The notes under the pieces: generated by a model | What the model saw: the letters and a program-made list of their open reading frames with translations, nothing else | Databases searched by the model: none | Told to the model about the DNA's origin: nothing | Assembly (NCBI GenBank): GCA_012520095.1 | Contig: JAAYOV010000009.1 | Location: 1 to 55,300, forward strand | Source of the DNA: Tissierellia bacterium | GTDB lineage: Bacteria; Bacillota; Clostridia; Peptostreptococcales; Acidaminobacteraceae | Direction: 5' to 3' | DNA length: 55,300 nt | Program-made: the position numbers and the translations under genes | In this document: positions 24,438-32,256 of the stretch, in pieces | Position numbering within the stretch: the stretch's first letter is position 1 | How the letters are laid out: each line of letters starts with the position of its first letter

Positions 24438-25436
24438 TCATAAATTTTTATTAAGTTCTTTTTCCAGATTCTTCAGTTCTTTAAGCATTTCATCAAAAGC
24501 CGGGTAATCTCCATACATCATCTCTTTCATCGCATCATAATCTTCCTGTATCTTAGTAAAACGATATTCATCAGGTAATAATCTAATTTTTCCTTCAAGA
24601 ACATCTTCGTATTTTGCCCATTTCCTCGGATAAAATTTTATTTTGAAATTCGTAACTTTTTTCATCAATTCTATATCACGGATTGCAGATTCTTTAACGG
24701 GGGAACTTTCCATCTTGTATAAATCGTAATAGTGCCTCGCATATCTGCGGGGCATGCCCGAACTTTTAGGTCTGTTGGCTTCATGGTGCAATATAGTTGC
24801 TTTTTCCCAAAAGGTTCTTTCCGGTGCTACAGTTCTAATTTCAATTTTTTCTTTAAGTGTATTTGGATATACCTCGGAAATCATTGGTTCAATTTTTACT
24901 TTTATAGCAGGTGTCCAAGCTGCAAGGCTTCCAATCTCCAGCCTTATATTCTGCGTCAAGTAAGATGATGAAAAAATTTTAGGATATTCAAAAAGAATAG
25001 TTTGAGGGTTTTTTTTATCAATAGAAAATTTGAGCTCTGATTTCAAAAGTTTTCTGAAGTCTGCTTCTATCTCCGGTAAAAATTCGGTTTTAAGAAATTC
25101 TTCCGTCTTTATATTAATTTTCTTATTAAACTTATCTTGTCCGGTATTTGAACGTTCCTCCCAAGGCTCATCTTTTGCATATCCTAAAACTCTCCAATCT
25201 AATATAAGGTCTATATCCTCAGAAAACCTTTCAATTAATTTAAAGCATTTAGAAAGAGAGGTTCCGCCCTTAAATGTAAATGCATCTTTCCATTTGCTTT
25301 TATGAAATAGATAGTTCAAAACAAAGCAAACCCAGTAATCTTTTTCTATAACCGCTTCTGATAAACCCAAACTCTCAGATGTATTTAGACACAGAATTCG
25401 CAAATCATCGTTAGTTTCCTCAAAAAACTTATTCAT
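24438..25436 (-). CDS. AbiEii/AbiGii-type nucleotidyltransferase toxin
   Basis: A 332-residue protein of the AbiEii toxin family. The nucleotidyltransferase core shows FKGGTSLSK (about 59-67) followed by FSEDIDLIL (about 74-82), the GGT...DxD pattern that binds metal and nucleotide. A later conserved stretch is RTVAPERTFWEKATILHHEA (about 200-220). Such toxins block growth by modifying RNA, in some cases tRNA acceptor ends, and are countered by an upstream antitoxin. ATG 25436 overlaps the antitoxin end by eight bases and has a GAGGG site. The region is visibly more AT-rich than its neighbours, suggesting transfer. Confidence 0.88.
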   Translation of the reverse strand: MNKFFEETNDDLRILCLNTSESLGLSEAVIEKDYWVCFVLNYLFHKSKWKDAFTFKGGTSLSKCFKLIERFSEDIDLILDWRVLGYAKDEPWEERSNTGQDKFNKKINIKTEEFLKTEFLPEIEADFRKLLKSELKFSIDKKNPQTILFEYPKIFSSSYLTQNIRLEIGSLAAWTPAIKVKIEPMISEVYPNTLKEKIEIRTVAPERTFWEKATILHHEANRPKSSGMPRRYARHYYDLYKMESSPVKESAIRDIELMKKVTNFKIKFYPRKWAKYEDVLEGKIRLLPDEYRFTKIQEDYDAMKEMMYGDYPAFDEMLKELKNLEKELNKNL

Positions 25437-26040
25437 CTTTGCCCTCACAAATTTCTCTTATTATTTCATAAATCCACGATGCAACAGCAGTGGAATCTTC
25501 CATGAGTTCGGTTTTTTCTTTTTGGGTCAAATTACTTCTTATTATTTGTATGTCTTTTTTATCGACACCATCCTTGCCTAGGGCCTTAATTGCTTGAATA
25601 ACGGTAGCTGTTTTTAAAGACATATTGGCAATTTCGCCGAGCTTTACTTTCTTAAATACTAAAATACTCTTACCCACCTGATATTCTTTATTCCTTCCGC
25701 TTGAAATATATGTCCATTTGCTTGGAACTTGTGTTGATAAACCCAAAAGATTAAGTGCTGTACCGGCATATGGTGCAATGTTCCAATTGTATTTTCTGGC
25801 AATGGCAATTGCCAACTCGTGCATCGAAGGTGCAGCGTATTCTTTAATTAACTCACTATATTCCGGGTCATGATAAAAACCGCTGATTATCCTGCTAATT
25901 TTTTTATCATTAACCAAACGGTTCAAGGTTTTTCTTACCGTTTCATAAGAAGCTATTTCCAAAAAATCGTTTGCAATAAAAACCTTTCCGGGGTCAGCTT
26001 TACCAATTTTGTTTTTAATTTGTTCAGCATAAGAAATCAT
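25429..26040 (-). CDS. AbiEi-like antitoxin (DUF6088 type)
   Basis: A 203-residue protein with an N-terminal winged-helix region (about 1-75, including IASYETVRKTLNRLVNDKKI) and a C-terminal domain with GTALNLLGLSTQVPSKW (about 98-114). This is the pattern of DUF6088 antitoxins encoded directly before AbiEii toxins. Members bind their own promoter, and here a dyad lies across the promoter at 26053-26086. The ATG follows a GGGGGTGA site. Confidence 0.85.
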   Translation of the reverse strand: MISYAEQIKNKIGKADPGKVFIANDFLEIASYETVRKTLNRLVNDKKISRIISGFYHDPEYSELIKEYAAPSMHELAIAIARKYNWNIAPYAGTALNLLGLSTQVPSKWTYISSGRNKEYQVGKSILVFKKVKLGEIANMSLKTATVIQAIKALGKDGVDKKDIQIIRSNLTQKEKTELMEDSTAVASWIYEIIREICEGKDE

Positions 26041-26349: not shown

Positions 26350-26380
26350 AAAGAGATCTCCTCATTCACTGAGATCTCCC
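26343..26380 (-). terminator. terminator of the pepF-glnS-phospholipase operon
   Basis: GAGATCTC at 26353-26360 pairs with GAGATCTC at 26371-26378 around a ten-base loop; on the minus strand the hairpin is followed by TTTTTTATTTG. The hairpin begins inside the end of the phospholipase gene. Confidence 0.8.
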
Positions 26381-27150
26381 TCAAAATTTCGCATGGCGCA
26401 TTCCGGGCCGACTTCAAACAAACGGGTGAACTTATGCCTCCCTTTGTCGTAGGATTGCATGAAATCTTCATACATGTTGGTGTTGAGCACCTTCGGATCG
26501 ACCGTCTCCGGATAAATATACTGAGATACGGGAGCAGAACCCAGTTTTTCAATGAGATTTTGCAGAGACAGCCGGATAAATCCCTTTGGCCTTGTGAGGA
26601 TGAGAAACTCCCGAAAATCGCGATAAGCCGACTGAATCACCCGTTCCGGAAGCACTTCATCATAGATGTCTTTTGCTGCTTTTCTATAGAAATCGACTAC
26701 CTGCTGAGGCAGCTGCTTTCCGACATCGATGATGGCAAGAGAATCCTCTCCCCGAAGAGGTCTTGCCATCCGCTCTTCAAAGAGGAGTGCATCGATAGAG
26801 GCCTCCAAGACTTTATGCTCAATCGGGTCCTGCGCATAATAAAAGACAAAGGGATGCGCAGTTGAATCCAGCGCATAATGAGCGACAAATCCGAGAAGAT
26901 AGTCTCTAAGGATATCATCTGCTTTTTCCAAAAGCGTCAAAACGTAGCTCATCAGCTCCTTTGGCTTTTCTTGATGCATGAGAGTTCCAAAGCGAAAACC
27001 GCTCTTCTTTTTCCACGGTTGAAAATCGAGGTAGAAGAGAAAATCCGGCCCCTGGGCTCCCAGCGAATAAAGACTCTCCCATGATATGGGGAGGTGATTG
27101 TCTTTTTGTACATCCTTTGAAAAAAAGTAATGCGTCCACAAATCGGGCAT
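26362..27150 (-). CDS. zinc-dependent phospholipase C-like protein
   Basis: A 262-residue protein of the zinc-dependent phospholipase C/S1-P1 nuclease-like fold. It starts MPDLWTHYFFS and contains candidate metal ligands in YSLGAQGPDFLFY (Asp, about 40), TLMHQ (about 63) and GFVAHYALDSTAHPF (two His and an Asp, about 95-108), the layout of the family. There is no signal peptide, so it is likely cytoplasmic and the substrate is uncertain. ATG 27150 has an AAAGGAGC site six bases upstream; the longer frame to 27189 is less likely. It is 47 bases after glnS. Confidence 0.75.
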   Translation of the reverse strand: MPDLWTHYFFSKDVQKDNHLPISWESLYSLGAQGPDFLFYLDFQPWKKKSGFRFGTLMHQEKPKELMSYVLTLLEKADDILRDYLLGFVAHYALDSTAHPFVFYYAQDPIEHKVLEASIDALLFEERMARPLRGEDSLAIIDVGKQLPQQVVDFYRKAAKDIYDEVLPERVIQSAYRDFREFLILTRPKGFIRLSLQNLIEKLGSAPVSQYIYPETVDPKVLNTNMYEDFMQSYDKGRHKFTRLFEVGPECAMRNFEGDLSE

Positions 27151-27197
27151 AAAGGCTCCTTTCGGAACCCTTATACCCAAATTTTGCACTCTATTCT

Positions 27198-28832
27198 TCA
27201 GGGACGATAAGAACTTTTCATCGAAACGACCTCATTAAAGGTCAATTCTTCAGTGTGATTGGGATCGACACTGAAATAACCGTGGCGATAAAACTGAAAG
27301 CGGTCAAACGGCTGCACATCTTTTACCACAGGTTCGATGAAGGCTCGAAATTCTTTTACCGACTCCGGATTCACCTGCTCTTCCAGCGGCCGTTCCGAAT
27401 CCAAACTGTCTTCTTTTAGGAGTTGATCATATCGGAGAACCTTTGCTTCTACTGCATGGTTGGCCTCTACCCAGTGGATGGTGCCCTTGGGCTTTCTCCC
27501 TTCAAATCCGCTTCCGCTTTTTGTCTCGGGATCGTATGTGCAATGAATCTCCAAGATATTTCCGTCTTCATCTTTTACGACTTCATTTGCCTTAATAAAG
27601 TACCCGTACTTGAGCCGCACTTCATTTCCCAAAGAAAGTCTTCGGAATCTCTTGGCAGGCACTTCCATGAAGTCCTCGCGCTCAATATAGAGCTCTCTGC
27701 CGAAAGGCATCTCTCTCTCTCCCAGCTGCGGGTTTTCTACATTGTTCTCCGCCGGAAGCCACTCAACGCCCTTGTCCCAGTTTGTGATGACCACCTTGAC
27801 GGGATCGAGCACCGCCATGATTCTGGGTGCTTTCAGTTTGAGATCTTCTCGGATAAAGTGCTCCAACTGATGAAATTCCGTGACGCTGTTTTCCTTTGAG
27901 ACGCCCGTTTCCCGGATGAATGCCTTAATACCCTCCGGCGTATATCCTCTTCGTCGCATACCGCTGACAGTGAGAAGACGAGGGTCATCCCATCCGTCAA
28001 TCAATCCCTTTTCGACAAGCCTGATAATGTGCCTCTTTCCGATGACGGCTCCGGCAATATTGAGCCTGGCAAACTCAAATTGCCTCGGTTTAAATTCGAC
28101 ATCCGTGTTGTCGATGTACCAATCATACAAGGGGCGGTTGTTTTCAAACTCGAGGGAACACAGAGAGTGTGTAATGCGCTCGACATAGTCTTCGAGAGGG
28201 TGGGCAAAGTCATACATGGGATAGATATGCCATTTGCTCCCCGTTCGATAATGCAGTTCATGGAGAATTCGATAGATGACGGGATCTCGAAGATTCATAT
28301 TGGGAGAGGCCATGTCGATTTTTGCCCGAAGGACGACGGATCCTTCCTCAAATTCCCCGGCTCTCATGCGCGCAAACAGATCAAGATTTTCTTCAACAGA
28401 TCGATTCCTTCTGGGGCTTTCCGTTCCGGGCTCTGTCAGCGTTCCACGCTGCGCGCGCATATCCTCGGGACTTGTGTCGTCAACATAAGCGAGACCTTTT
28501 TTGATGAGAATGACGGCTCTTTCGTACATCTCTTCAAAATAGTCCGATGCATAGCGCACCTCTACCGGCTCAAAACCGAGCCATTTGATGTCTTCTTGGA
28601 TGAGCTTGACAAATTGCTCTTCTTCTTTTTCCGGATTGGTGTCATCAAAGCGAAGGTACGTATAGCCTCCAAATTCTTCTGCCAGATCAAAGTTGATGGT
28701 CAGCGCCTTCACATGCCCGATATGCAACAATCCATTGGGCTCGGGCGGAAAACGGGTGACGATGCCGTCTACCACATTGTTGGCTAGGTCGTCTATCATG
28801 ATGTTTCGAATAAAATTAGATGATTCTCTCAT
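27198..28832 (-). CDS. glnS: glutaminyl-tRNA synthetase
   Basis: A 544-residue class I synthetase of the GlnRS type. The HIGH motif is in PEPNGLLHIGHVKA (about 32-45), followed by RFDDTNPEKE. The region of the KMSKS loop reads VIGKRHI before DGWDDPRL, an altered form. A two-beta-barrel anticodon-binding part fills about 340-530. It charges tRNA-Gln directly, whereas many Bacillota use only the GatCAB route. The gene follows pepF by ten bases, with an AGGAGAG site, and both lie behind a T-box whose specifier codon is CAG (glutamine). Confidence 0.95.
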   Translation of the reverse strand: MRESSNFIRNIMIDDLANNVVDGIVTRFPPEPNGLLHIGHVKALTINFDLAEEFGGYTYLRFDDTNPEKEEEQFVKLIQEDIKWLGFEPVEVRYASDYFEEMYERAVILIKKGLAYVDDTSPEDMRAQRGTLTEPGTESPRRNRSVEENLDLFARMRAGEFEEGSVVLRAKIDMASPNMNLRDPVIYRILHELHYRTGSKWHIYPMYDFAHPLEDYVERITHSLCSLEFENNRPLYDWYIDNTDVEFKPRQFEFARLNIAGAVIGKRHIIRLVEKGLIDGWDDPRLLTVSGMRRRGYTPEGIKAFIRETGVSKENSVTEFHQLEHFIREDLKLKAPRIMAVLDPVKVVITNWDKGVEWLPAENNVENPQLGEREMPFGRELYIEREDFMEVPAKRFRRLSLGNEVRLKYGYFIKANEVVKDEDGNILEIHCTYDPETKSGSGFEGRKPKGTIHWVEANHAVEAKVLRYDQLLKEDSLDSERPLEEQVNPESVKEFRAFIEPVVKDVQPFDRFQFYRHGYFSVDPNHTEELTFNEVVSMKSSYRP

Positions 28833-28842
28833 ATTTGCTCTC

Positions 28843-30537
28843 CTACAAATTCATATGCTCAAAGCTCTCCAGACTGCAACGGAGACCTTCTACGGTTCTT
28901 TTTACGACGGCTCCATCAAACGGATTGTCAAATCTGCCGGCTTCAAGAATCGAGAGGAAGGGCATCGTACCTCCCGCCCGGCAGATTCGCAGATAGTCCT
29001 CCCAAAGAGTCGCATCTTCTTCTTGCATGCGAAGGAAAATCTGCATGGCGACGATCTGCGCCAAAGTGTAATCAACATAGTAAAAGGGGATCGAGTAAAT
29101 ATGATGTTGCGCCTGCCAGCGCCCGCCGGCCTCTAAAAAGGCATTGTCCTCATATTTTTTCCACGAGTTGAACTCTTTTTCCAACTCTCTCCACTTGGCT
29201 TTTCTCTCACTCGAAGAGGCCGTAGGGTTTTCGTAGACATAGTGCTGAAACGCATCCACCAGTACTCCATACGGGATGAAGGTAATGGCGGAAGACTGAT
29301 GATCATAGTAGTATTTTTGTGTGTCTTTTCCGAAGAATTTCTCCATCCACGGATACGTCAGAAACTCCATGCCCATCGAGTGGATTTCCGCCGATTCCAT
29401 GCCGGGAAAACGCTGCTCGCTCATCAGATGCTCTCTAGCCATGTACACTTGAAGAGCGTGGCCGAATTCGTGTGTCAGAACACCCACATCCCCCGAAGTT
29501 CCGTTGAAGTTACTGAAGATAAAGGGAACTTTTTCCCCTTCTATAAAATTACAGTAGCCACCCGGTGCCTTTCCTTTTTTCTGCTCCAGATCCATCAACT
29601 CGCGATCCACTAGGAGTCGAAAGAAATCTCTTGTCTCCGGGCTCATCTCATCATACATTTCTATCGCGGAAGCGACGAGTTTGTCTTTTCCTCCTATTGG
29701 AACGGGATTTCCGGAGGGGAAGGAATAACTCAGGTCATAGTATTGTAATTCATCAAGTCCCAGGCGCTCTCTTTGTTTCTCGACGACTTCTTCGGCAAGC
29801 GGCACCAAAAAGTTGTGCACGCCCTTGCGGTAGGCAGCCACATTTTTCGGTCCATAGTCCGTTCTTCCCATGCGATCGTATGCCATCTGCACAAAATTGT
29901 CGTATCCGAGTTTGGTTGCCATGGAGTGCCTGAGAGAAACCAATTGATCATAAATGGAGTCAAATTCCTCCGCATTCTCTTCAAAATACCCCCAGTAGGC
30001 TTCCATGGCAGCTTTTCTCATCGCTCGATCACTCGATTCAAAGAACTTCTGCATCCCGGAGAGCGTTCGCTTTTCCCCCTCAAACTCAATCTGAGCTGCG
30101 GCAAGAAGTTTCTCATACTGAGAGACGAGCATGTTCTCCTGTGCCAGTTCCTCCATAATTTCGGGCGAAAACGTCTTTCCGGCCAGGCGAATCAAATCGA
30201 AGAAATGCGCCCCCAGCTCCTCTTCAAACCGAGGATAAAACGGAGACTCCAGCAACATGTCATAAAAAGCCATGTTGAGAGCTTCAAGCGCAGGCCTGTT
30301 TGTATCAAAAAAAGTGTTTTCCGCCTCATAAAACGGGTCGAGAGTATTTACCGTATGGCGGATACTCACAAGCACCATTGCCGTAAACAGCTCTTTTCTG
30401 AGCTCGTTGATATCAAGCATGATCTTCCACTGCTCTTCAAAAGTCTTTGCGGAAGAAAATGCCTCTTGCCAAGCGAGCATCTTGCCTTCAGCTTCCTCTA
30501 CCGACGGCCTTTTATAAGGAATGTCATTGAACTTCAT
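28843..30537 (-). CDS. M3-family oligoendopeptidase
   Basis: A 564-residue zinc peptidase of the PepF/M3 family. The metal site HEFGHA lies near residue 356, with a Glu ligand candidate about 25 residues later in ESAEIHSMGMEF. The N-terminal 150 residues are helical. These cytoplasmic enzymes cut short peptides into smaller ones. It stands first in an operon with glnS behind a glutamine-type T-box, so its level should rise when tRNA-Gln is uncharged. A ribosome site AGGGAG directly after the terminator T run precedes the ATG. Confidence 0.92.
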   Translation of the reverse strand: MKFNDIPYKRPSVEEAEGKMLAWQEAFSSAKTFEEQWKIMLDINELRKELFTAMVLVSIRHTVNTLDPFYEAENTFFDTNRPALEALNMAFYDMLLESPFYPRFEEELGAHFFDLIRLAGKTFSPEIMEELAQENMLVSQYEKLLAAAQIEFEGEKRTLSGMQKFFESSDRAMRKAAMEAYWGYFEENAEEFDSIYDQLVSLRHSMATKLGYDNFVQMAYDRMGRTDYGPKNVAAYRKGVHNFLVPLAEEVVEKQRERLGLDELQYYDLSYSFPSGNPVPIGGKDKLVASAIEMYDEMSPETRDFFRLLVDRELMDLEQKKGKAPGGYCNFIEGEKVPFIFSNFNGTSGDVGVLTHEFGHALQVYMAREHLMSEQRFPGMESAEIHSMGMEFLTYPWMEKFFGKDTQKYYYDHQSSAITFIPYGVLVDAFQHYVYENPTASSSERKAKWRELEKEFNSWKKYEDNAFLEAGGRWQAQHHIYSIPFYYVDYTLAQIVAMQIFLRMQEEDATLWEDYLRICRAGGTMPFLSILEAGRFDNPFDGAVVKRTVEGLRCSLESFEHMNL

Positions 30538-30546
30538 ATTATCTCC

Positions 30547-30735
30547 CTAAAAAAAGGGAGCGCTCATCCTCAAGGGACGAGATCACTCCCGCGTTGCCAC
30601 CCTAATTGACAAATGTCCACTCATTGTATCACTGCTCCAAGCCTGTTCATCGGACTGACCGCTTCCTCACACCCACCGGAAACTCTCTGAAGATACCCTC
30701 ACGATTACTATTCTCTTCCTCGCAGTATGAAACTG
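30547..30735 (-). ncRNA. T-box leader, glutamine specifier, upstream of pepF-glnS
   Basis: On the minus strand the leader has the T-box layout. Stem I base ACTGC (30726-30722) pairs with GCAGT (30635-30631). An AGTA loop-E strand faces GAA, and the codon directly after GAA is CAG (30645-30643), read by tRNA-Gln. An AGAGAG segment lies between. The T-box sequence AGGGTGGCAACGCGGG lies at 30588-30603, followed by a terminator with GGGAG and CTCCC arms and a T run (30548-30554). Uncharged tRNA-Gln would favour the antiterminator and read-through into pepF and glnS. Confidence 0.92.
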
Positions 30736-30740
30736 GATTC

Positions 30741-30769
30741 ATTCTATCAGATGAAAGGCGATGTTTCAA
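30741..30769 (-). promoter_or_regulatory. promoter of the glutamine T-box operon
   Basis: On the minus strand TTGAAA (30769-30764), a 17-base spacer and TAGAAT (30746-30741) form a near-consensus promoter directly after the serS stop. The leader would start near 30735. Confidence 0.75.
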
Positions 30770-30774
30770 TATCT

Positions 30775-32043
30775 TTAGATCTCTTCTAGTCCTCCCATAT
30801 AAGGGACGAGAACCTTTGGAATTCTGACTTTCCCGTTTTCTTGCTGATTGTTTTCAAGGATCGCCGCCAGCGTCCTTCCTGTTGGAATGCCTGAGCCGTT
30901 TAGCGTGTGCATGAACTGCACTTTTCCATTGGAGTCTCTGTAGCGAAGCCCCGCCCTTCTGGCCTGGAAGTCGTGGAAATTGCTGATGGAGGAGATTTCG
31001 CGATAGCCGCCATTACTTGGAAACCAAACTTCGATATCATACGTCTTTGAAGAGGAGAAGCCCAGATCTCCCGTACAAAGGAGCACGACTTGATAGGGAA
31101 GCTCCAAGCTTTGAAGAAGTCTTTCAACGTCGCTCACCATATCCTGATGCTCCGCTTCACTCTCCTCGGGGAGGACATATTTTACAAGCTCAACTTTACC
31201 GAATTCGTGTTGACGGATAATGCCTCGGGTGTCTCTCCCGGCAGAACCGGCCTCTCTTCGGAAGCAGCGCGTGTACGATGTCATATAGATAGGTAAGTCC
31301 TCATGCGAATAGATCTCATCTTTGAGATAGTTGGTAAGCGTCACTTCCGCTGTGGGGATCAGGAATAGATCGTCTGAGGCAATATGATACATATCTTCTT
31401 CAAACTTCGGCAATTGGCCGGTTCCTGTCATGCTATCTCGGTTTGCCAGCACAGGTGTGTTCATCTCCATGTATTTTCCGCTATCGGTATGAAAGTCAAG
31501 AAAATAGTTGAACAGGGCACGCTCTAGGCGAGCAGCCTTTCCCTTGACGAAGGTAAAGCGCGAACCGGTCACTTTGGCTCCCCGTTCAAAATCAAGGAAA
31601 TCTCTTTCCACGCCGAGCTCCCAATGCGCCTTCGGCTCAAAATCAAATCTCGTCGGCTCTCCCCATTTACGCAAAACTTTATTATCAGCATCATCGTTTC
31701 CAACAGGCACTTCTTCTTGTGGAATATTGGGCACAAAGAAGAGCAGTTCGTTCATCTCTTCTTCTACTTCTTTGAGAAGCGTTTCTTCAGTTGAAATCTG
31801 TGTCGACAAATCTTTCAGATACTCTAAAAGCTCAGTGACATCCTCTCCCGCTCTTTTCTTTACAGGAATCTCTCTGGAGAAACTGTTCTGTCTGGCTCTT
31901 TTTTCCTCGAGATCGATCAAAATCCCTCGGCGTTTTTCTTCCAGCTCCTTGATGCGAAGAAGGCCGAAGTCTCCGCCGCCCCGTCGCTGAACTCCTTTGA
32001 GCACTTCGTCAAAATCTCTTCGTATGCGTTTGATATCGTACAT
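30775..32043 (-). CDS. serS: seryl-tRNA synthetase
   Basis: A 422-residue class II synthetase. The N-terminal coiled-coil arm (about residues 28-100) carries long charged helices, and the catalytic core has TSYTRCFRREAGSAGRDTRGIIRQHEFGKVEL (motif 2) and the motif 3 region GSGIPTGRTLAAILENNQ near the end. It charges tRNA-Ser (and tRNA-Sec). ATG 32043 is five bases after AGGAGG; a GTG six bases upstream is also in frame but lies inside that spacing. A serine T-box precedes it. Confidence 0.97.
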   Translation of the reverse strand: MYDIKRIRRDFDEVLKGVQRRGGGDFGLLRIKELEEKRRGILIDLEEKRARQNSFSREIPVKKRAGEDVTELLEYLKDLSTQISTEETLLKEVEEEMNELLFFVPNIPQEEVPVGNDDADNKVLRKWGEPTRFDFEPKAHWELGVERDFLDFERGAKVTGSRFTFVKGKAARLERALFNYFLDFHTDSGKYMEMNTPVLANRDSMTGTGQLPKFEEDMYHIASDDLFLIPTAEVTLTNYLKDEIYSHEDLPIYMTSYTRCFRREAGSAGRDTRGIIRQHEFGKVELVKYVLPEESEAEHQDMVSDVERLLQSLELPYQVVLLCTGDLGFSSSKTYDIEVWFPSNGGYREISSISNFHDFQARRAGLRYRDSNGKVQFMHTLNGSGIPTGRTLAAILENNQQENGKVRIPKVLVPYMGGLEEI

Positions 32044-32055
32044 CTCCACCTCCTA

Positions 32056-32256
32056 AAAAATAAAAACCCGTCCCCAAGGGACGAGTTATCACCCGCGTTG
32101 CCACCCTGCTTGATTCAAAAGAATCCGCTCATATTCATACTGCTCTTAGGTAGATTCAAAGGTTCCTCTGTCCCTTCTCAGCAACCAGGGACTCTCTGAA
32201 AGAGGGTTCGCCTCCTACTATGTCTCGTCGACGCAGTTATTCACTTCATTTGCAAG
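32056..32256 (-). ncRNA. T-box leader, serine specifier, upstream of serS
   Basis: On the minus strand ACTGC (32237-32233) pairs with a downstream GCAGT as the stem I base. The AGTA loop-E strand faces GAA followed by the specifier TCT (32154-32152), a serine codon. The T-box sequence AGGGTGGCAACGCGGG lies near 32092-32107. The terminator ACTCGTCCC/GGGACGGGT with a T run ends near 32056. The layout predicts read-through into serS when tRNA-Ser is uncharged. A likely -10 element TATTAT lies at 32268-32263; its -35 is weak. Confidence 0.93.

Follow-up and report, generated by a model that had tools for sequence, protein, structure and literature searches.

The serS to glnS locus and its two leaders

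The window, the whole stretch of 55,300 nucleotides analysed here (Tissierellia bacterium, GenBank assembly GCA_012520095.1, contig JAAYOV010000009.1, positions 1 to 55,300), carries a group of genes on its minus strand that begins with serS, encoding serine--tRNA ligase (30775..32043; TIGR00414, 515.9 bits; we chose an ATG start, the mechanical ORF running from 32049). A T-box leader with the specifier UCU precedes it (32074..32240, minus). Downstream of serS lie, on the same strand, a gene for an M3 family oligoendopeptidase (28843..30537) and glnS, encoding glutamine--tRNA ligase (27198..28832; TIGR00440, 670.9 bits). A zinc-dependent phospholipase C-like gene (26362..27189, minus; PF00882) starts 8 nt after glnS and is the probable third gene of the unit that begins with the peptidase; a relative of it adjoins glnS in G001, G002, G016, G021 and G032. 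The first-pass annotation had called the peptidase pepF, a name that we do not retain: the protein reaches 93 bits against the pepF model (cut-off 490) and 626 bits against TIGR02289, "M3_not_pepF" (cut-off 442), and its HEFGH motif is invariant among the compared relatives. Also on the minus strand, 24438-26040 holds a toxin gene for a nucleotidyltransferase of the AbiEii type, preceded by a DUF6088 / weak AbiEi-like partner.

The element under study (30735-30547, minus) occupies the gap between serS and the peptidase gene. Its core, comprising stem I, stem III and the antiterminator (30570..30729, minus), matched RF00230 over model positions 1-219 of 219 with 80.0 bits (E 3.3e-17, for a search space of 2,001 bases), and this covariance search confirmed the T-box that had been proposed at 30547-30735 from the letters alone. 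The score lies beneath the curated gathering cut-off of RF00230, 93 bits, and for this reason an Rfam scan of the window at the default gathering threshold returned zero T-box matches. The host genome (G000) contains 17 T-boxes at E <= 0.001, with 3 above the Rfam cut-off and 14 below it, so default Rfam annotation would miss most of them.

The AGUA and GAA elements and the UGGN bulge are present in the leader. Between stems I and III, where stem II and IIA/B would lie, 40 positions of RF00230 are left without aligned residues. Stem II and the IIA/B pseudoknot are missing from some known T-boxes, such as the glycine leaders, and are not considered essential to a T-box. The specifier codon, CAG for glutamine (30643..30645, minus), directly follows a GAA, and the T-box bulge reads UGGC (30596..30599, minus). 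An intrinsic terminator hairpin at 30556..30590 (minus; -21.9 kcal/mol, z -2.99 against shuffles) overlaps the 3' arm of the antiterminator and is directly followed by a tract of 7 U (30549..30555, minus). Terminator and antiterminator have the arm CUCGUCC in common and are thus mutually exclusive hairpins. Taken whole, the 192-nt leader is as stable as its shuffles (z 0.10), and the evidence for the fold is therefore the covariance match and its conservation, not energy.

Codon, bulge, terminator and promoter are retained in all three genomes of the genus (G000, G001 and G002), as is the core itself. The three agree exactly in the specifier, the bulge and both promoter boxes, while the promoter spacer and the loops vary and the terminator hairpin differs at single positions only. 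The putative promoter, TTGAAA-17 nt-TAGAAT with a TG before the -10 box (30741..30769, minus), lies just after the serS stop codon and matches at 10 of 12 positions, with 1 match found against 0.6 expected in shuffles. Matches of this kind are common, 6 being found in 7.1 kb where 7.5 were expected, and what speaks for this promoter is its conservation.

An operon older than the glutamine leader

The order serS-M3-glnS was found in 13 genomes of the host's family, the 3 of the host's genus and 10 others (G004, G005, G016, G018, G021, G024, G028, G030, G032 and G036). In all ten of the latter serS abuts the peptidase gene (by tblastn, from about -8 to about +18 nt) and no T-box lies between them, whereas all three genus genomes have a gap of ~240 nt that holds the Gln leader; in G002 the unit is divided over two contigs. 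The gene-order survey of M3-glnS thus returned a Gln leader throughout the genus and in none of the ten other serS-M3-glnS operons.

A T-box stands upstream of serS in nine of the ten non-genus operons, the tenth, in G032, ending at a contig edge; in G021 a MurG-like gene, recognised by eye, stands between the T-box and serS. All nine leaders that were read specify serine, with UCA in G016, G021, G024, G028 and G036 and UCU in G004, G005, G018 and G030. With the undivided operons under a serine leader in all nine cases read, the comparison indicates that the pairing of the peptidase with glnS predates the Gln leader. The suggestion that the leader couples glutamine shortage to peptide breakdown loses much of its force here, since the M3-glnS pair already sat inside the serS-M3-glnS operon before the Gln leader appeared, and for the same reason the peptidase may have come along passively.

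Relatives of the peptidase were also surveyed more widely. Among the matches listed there were 80 named genome loci; at least four carry serS-M3-glnS, all within the family set, and at none of the 80 was a T-box core found within 450 nt upstream of the M3 gene. Near the M3 peptidase gene of two g21 genomes we observed matches to the glycine riboswitch model RF03166 (L090 3133-3325 and L091 2058-2250, both minus) at 91-95 bits, short of the model's cut-off (110). A pattern search of 60 glnS upstream regions from the order's other families (about one per genus; most 2.6 kb, several shortened by contig ends) detected a T-box adjoining glnS in one, L135 (G145), where a CAA T-box lies ~120 nt upstream of glnS.

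It had been remarked that many Bacillota lack GlnRS. This agrees with the survey by Wels et al. (2008; PMC2494555), but does not describe the host's order, where GlnRS was found in 260 of the 297 genomes searched; within the host's family it was found in 27 of 41. A search that detected GatB in 12 of 14 controls found it in none of the three genus genomes, and Gln-tRNA-Gln is therefore probably made by GlnRS alone in the genus.

To place the Gln leader among T-boxes, we compared the Gln leaders of the three genus genomes with a pool of 60 T-boxes from four genomes (16 from G000, 18 from G002, 12 from G016 and 14 from G021). Whichever Gln leader was the query, the serS-operon leaders of the four genomes took the top four places by raw score, and by this measure the serS leader is the closest within G000; Gln and serS-operon leaders are all short and have the same layout. 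With the G000 Gln leader as query, the z-score of the aspS leader (11.6) comes near those of the serS-operon leaders (12.0 to 16.4), and when the Gln leader of G002 is used instead, aspS stands above the own serS leader. In a tree of 29 T-box leaders 1 of 26 inner branches is well supported, and because of this poor resolution the case for a serS origin is made by similarity ranks.

At the specifier, the Gln leader UGAA-CAGGCUCGGAGCA (G001) aligns with the serS leaders UGAAUCAGACUCGGAGUA (G021, g20) and UGAAUCAAGCUCGGAGCA (G036, g15) and has one U fewer than these relatives. In the SerRS tree the genus groups with g15 and g20 (100/100) and is sister to g20 (88/78), and the serS leaders read in the g15/g20 clade are UCAA or UCAG. 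Most likely, then, the serine leader of the serS-M3-glnS operon was copied in the ancestor of the genus into the gap before the peptidase gene, and the loss of one U in the copy would have turned a serine specifier (UCA followed by A or G) into one for glutamine.

Acquisition of the Gln leader from some other T-box, independently of the serS leader, seems unlikely to us. Gln T-boxes on glnS did arise elsewhere, with CAA in three g16 genomes and in G145, and the poorly resolved tree leaves room for such an origin; against it stand the short layout that both kinds share and the raw scores, by which all four serS-operon leaders head the list of 60 T-boxes whichever Gln leader is compared. The g16 cases, L073 (G061), L075 (G029) and L077 (G017), are independent Gln leaders within the family, and in G029 and G017 the glnS with the CAA T-box is a second copy of the gene.

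Predicted control by tRNA-Gln

Taking into consideration the features of the leader and the history of the operon, we are confident, though short of certain, that we are dealing with a T-box riboswitch that is specific for tRNA-Gln, acts by transcription attenuation, has a promoter of its own and controls the peptidase gene, glnS and probably the phospholipase C-like gene, and which most likely arose as a copy of the serS leader changed from Ser to Gln. The response to tRNA-Gln is what we infer from the sequence. While tRNA-Gln is mostly charged, RNA polymerase would halt at the 30590-30556 hairpin. When uncharged tRNA-Gln accumulates, its anticodon would pair with CAG and its GCCA end with UGGC; with the tRNA bound, the antiterminator would form and the peptidase gene, glnS and the probable third gene would be transcribed. 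The gene order bears out the prediction that the leader acts on the peptidase first and on glnS second, both genes lying directly downstream on the same strand. We detected no terminator after serS and before the Gln leader, so transcripts reading through from serS would also have to pass the terminator of the Gln leader.

This last point bears on whether the leader matters at all. The peptidase gene and glnS could be transcribed mainly from the serS promoter, with the internal T-box a relic or a secondary brake, as the missing terminator after serS and the contiguity of the three genes in ten relatives might suggest. We regard this as improbable, because the specifier, the bulge and the promoter boxes have stayed identical in the three genomes while spacer and loops differ, because the terminator hairpin changes at single positions only, and because any read-through from serS would still meet that terminator. 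Control at the level of translation was considered and set aside: the Shine-Dalgarno sequence AGGGAG of the peptidase gene is able to pair with the terminator's 3' arm (30543-30560, minus; -9.8 kcal/mol, z -1.99), but G001 and G002 have a different ribosome-binding site and the pairing is therefore probably due to chance.

For the specifier, the first-pass annotation took the codon right after GAA and checked this reading on the serS leader. The codon so obtained, CAG, is the right one and the serS leader does read GAA-UCU; the rule itself, however, is unreliable. Among the 15 other G000 T-boxes whose gene names an amino acid (the TrpX-like L003 being left out), the fitting codon stands directly after GAA in 2 only, serS (UCU) and leuS (CUC). 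It is shifted from GAA by 1 in three (valS, metS and lysC) and by 2 in two (aspS and asnA), and in the remaining 8 GAA is missing just before it.

A better rule is a codon, then one purine, then the lower helix of stem I. It gives CAG in the Gln leader, where a G follows the codon and then the helix, in which GAG pairs with CUU in G000 and with CUC in G001 and G002. A purine likewise follows the specifier in 15 of 15 other testable G000 T-boxes; as the serS leader of G005 reads UCU-C and one leader of the host's order UCC-C, the purine is not absolute. The rule agrees with that of TBDB, where the specifier is placed 2-4 nt before the bulge end (PMC7778990).

The tRNA genes of G000 fit this reading. 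There are two for glutamine, UUG and CUG (L182), both with G73, so that the GCCA end of either can pair with the UGGC bulge. The anticodon of tRNA-Gln(CUG) is exactly complementary to the specifier, and tRNA-Gln(UUG) can also read CAG, by wobble. Across the 14 other G000 T-boxes with a cognate tRNA found (the ileS and TrpX-like L003 leaders being left out), the UGGN bulge and the cognate discriminator form a Watson-Crick pair in 11, among them serS, scored as a match because three of the four tRNA-Ser genes have G73, and a G-U pair in 3 (trpS, trpX and asnA); a G-U pair for Trp is reported for TBDB as well (PMC7778990). It speaks against the reading that CAG is rare as a glutamine specifier, its share among Gln T-boxes being 0.05 (TBDB Table 1, PMC7778990). 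Glutamine specificity, as first proposed, is thus upheld by the codon with its following purine, the fit of UGGC to G73, the presence of tRNA-Gln(CUG), conservation in the three genus genomes and glnS downstream.

It is very improbable that the specifier is read one base further upstream, as ACA (Thr), or one base further downstream, as AGG (Arg), even though the offset from GAA ranges from 0 to 2 in G000 and a tRNA-Arg(CCU) with G73 is present, which leaves Arg compatible with the UGGC bulge. We rejected ACA because UGGC does not suit Thr: T73 was found in all three tRNA-Thr that were read, and UGGA in the two Thr T-boxes. AGG is disfavoured by the C that follows it where a purine follows in all 15 testable G000 T-boxes, a rule with the two exceptions named above, and the unit contains glnS and neither an arginine nor a threonine gene.

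Two oddities were seen among the T-boxes and tRNAs of G000. The fourth tRNA-Ser gene, tRNA-Ser(GGA) (L184, contig 119), the natural reader of UCU/UCC, has T73 where the other three have G73; it mismatches the UGGC of the serS leader and may be either an error in the sequence or genuinely unusual. L003 (contig 115), a T-box upstream of the gene for another TrpX-like substrate-binding protein, the second in the genome, lacks a UGG specifier, its GAAG-UUC-A suggesting Phe.

Known T-boxes and the overlapping serine and glutamine codons

The Gln leader resembles transcription-attenuating T-boxes of RF00230 in its stem I specifier, its AGUA and GAA elements, stem III, the UGGN bulge, the competition of terminator and antiterminator and the synthetase gene downstream. 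It departs from the typical member in being short, in having neither stem II nor IIA/B, in scoring below the Rfam cut-off and in its rare CAG. T-boxes, Gln T-boxes and copies with changed specificity are already known, and Gln leaders on glnS occur in other relatives too. In Wels et al. (2008; PMC2494555), duplication followed by divergence to a new amino acid is one of four modes of T-box evolution, exemplified by a Tyr T-box turned Phe, and synthetase genes that stand second in an operon under the T-box of another amino acid are tabulated. Compared with those cases, the change here would be from Ser to Gln, with the copy inside the operon and splitting it, and it fits a one-base deletion by way of an overlapping codon. 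We found no description of a change from a serS to a Gln T-box, and a search combining T-box, glutamine, glnS and specifier returned zero papers, in a literature search whose reach took in few subscription papers. The interest of the locus lies in the split operon and in a possible two-codon ancestor: it illustrates how duplication of a riboswitch can divide one operon into separate units answering different tRNAs, here with a clear candidate base change.

The overlap lies in the serS leaders of the relatives, where UCAA or UCAG contains the serine codon UCA and, one base on, the glutamine codon CAA or CAG, in an operon that holds both synthetases. We entertain, as a tentative reading that is probably not the correct one, that such a leader senses tRNA-Ser by UCA and tRNA-Gln by CAA/CAG, and that the genus copied it and split the task into UCU before serS and CAG before the peptidase and glnS.

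UCA was found in 5 of the 9 leaders read from undivided serS-M3-glnS operons, in 0 of 13 read serS leaders of the family without linked glnS, in 0 of 33 read serS leaders from other families of the order (UCC 32, UCU 1) and in 0 of 3 serS leaders of the host's genus, where Gln has its own leader (the serS leader of G001 reads UCU). Pooling the 13 family and 33 order leaders, and with leaders from units with their own Gln leader excluded, the contrast is 5/9 against 0/46. A Fisher test of 5/9 against 0/45 gave p about 4e-5, and one by genus within the family, 3/5 against 0/8, gave p 0.035, both on genomes that are related. For the order, 60 serS regions were fetched and 34 had a T-box core, of which L342, which is cut, was dropped, leaving 33; L375 is a false core. 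The specifier counts exclude G032, because of its contig end, as well as G007, G006 and G026, where no T-box core was found within 420 nt of serS; the serS-operon leader of G021 lies beyond the 420 nt searched and was read separately.

A purine follows both frames in all five UCA leaders, and tRNA-Ser(UGA) and tRNA-Gln of G000 both have G73. UCA is rare as a serine specifier, with a share of 0.06 in TBDB Table 1 (PMC7778990). Speaking against the reading, four undivided operons use UCU, and the SerRS tree suggests that UCA was likely gained independently only twice.

A T-box with two codons, for Asn and Glu, overlapping in one specifier loop, has been tested in Clostridium acetobutylicum (Saad et al. 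2013, as described in PMC4052509). The serS leaders of g15, g20 and G024 resemble it in their overlapping codons, with a Ser + Gln layout; unlike the tested case, theirs is known from sequence alone, and unlike it the serS and Gln leaders of the window read one codon each. Should the two-codon ancestor be real, the window would represent a later stage with one leader per tRNA, the use of the rare codon CAG would be explained, and the relatives would hold a second natural two-codon T-box, the job of one RNA sensor having been divided between two copies.
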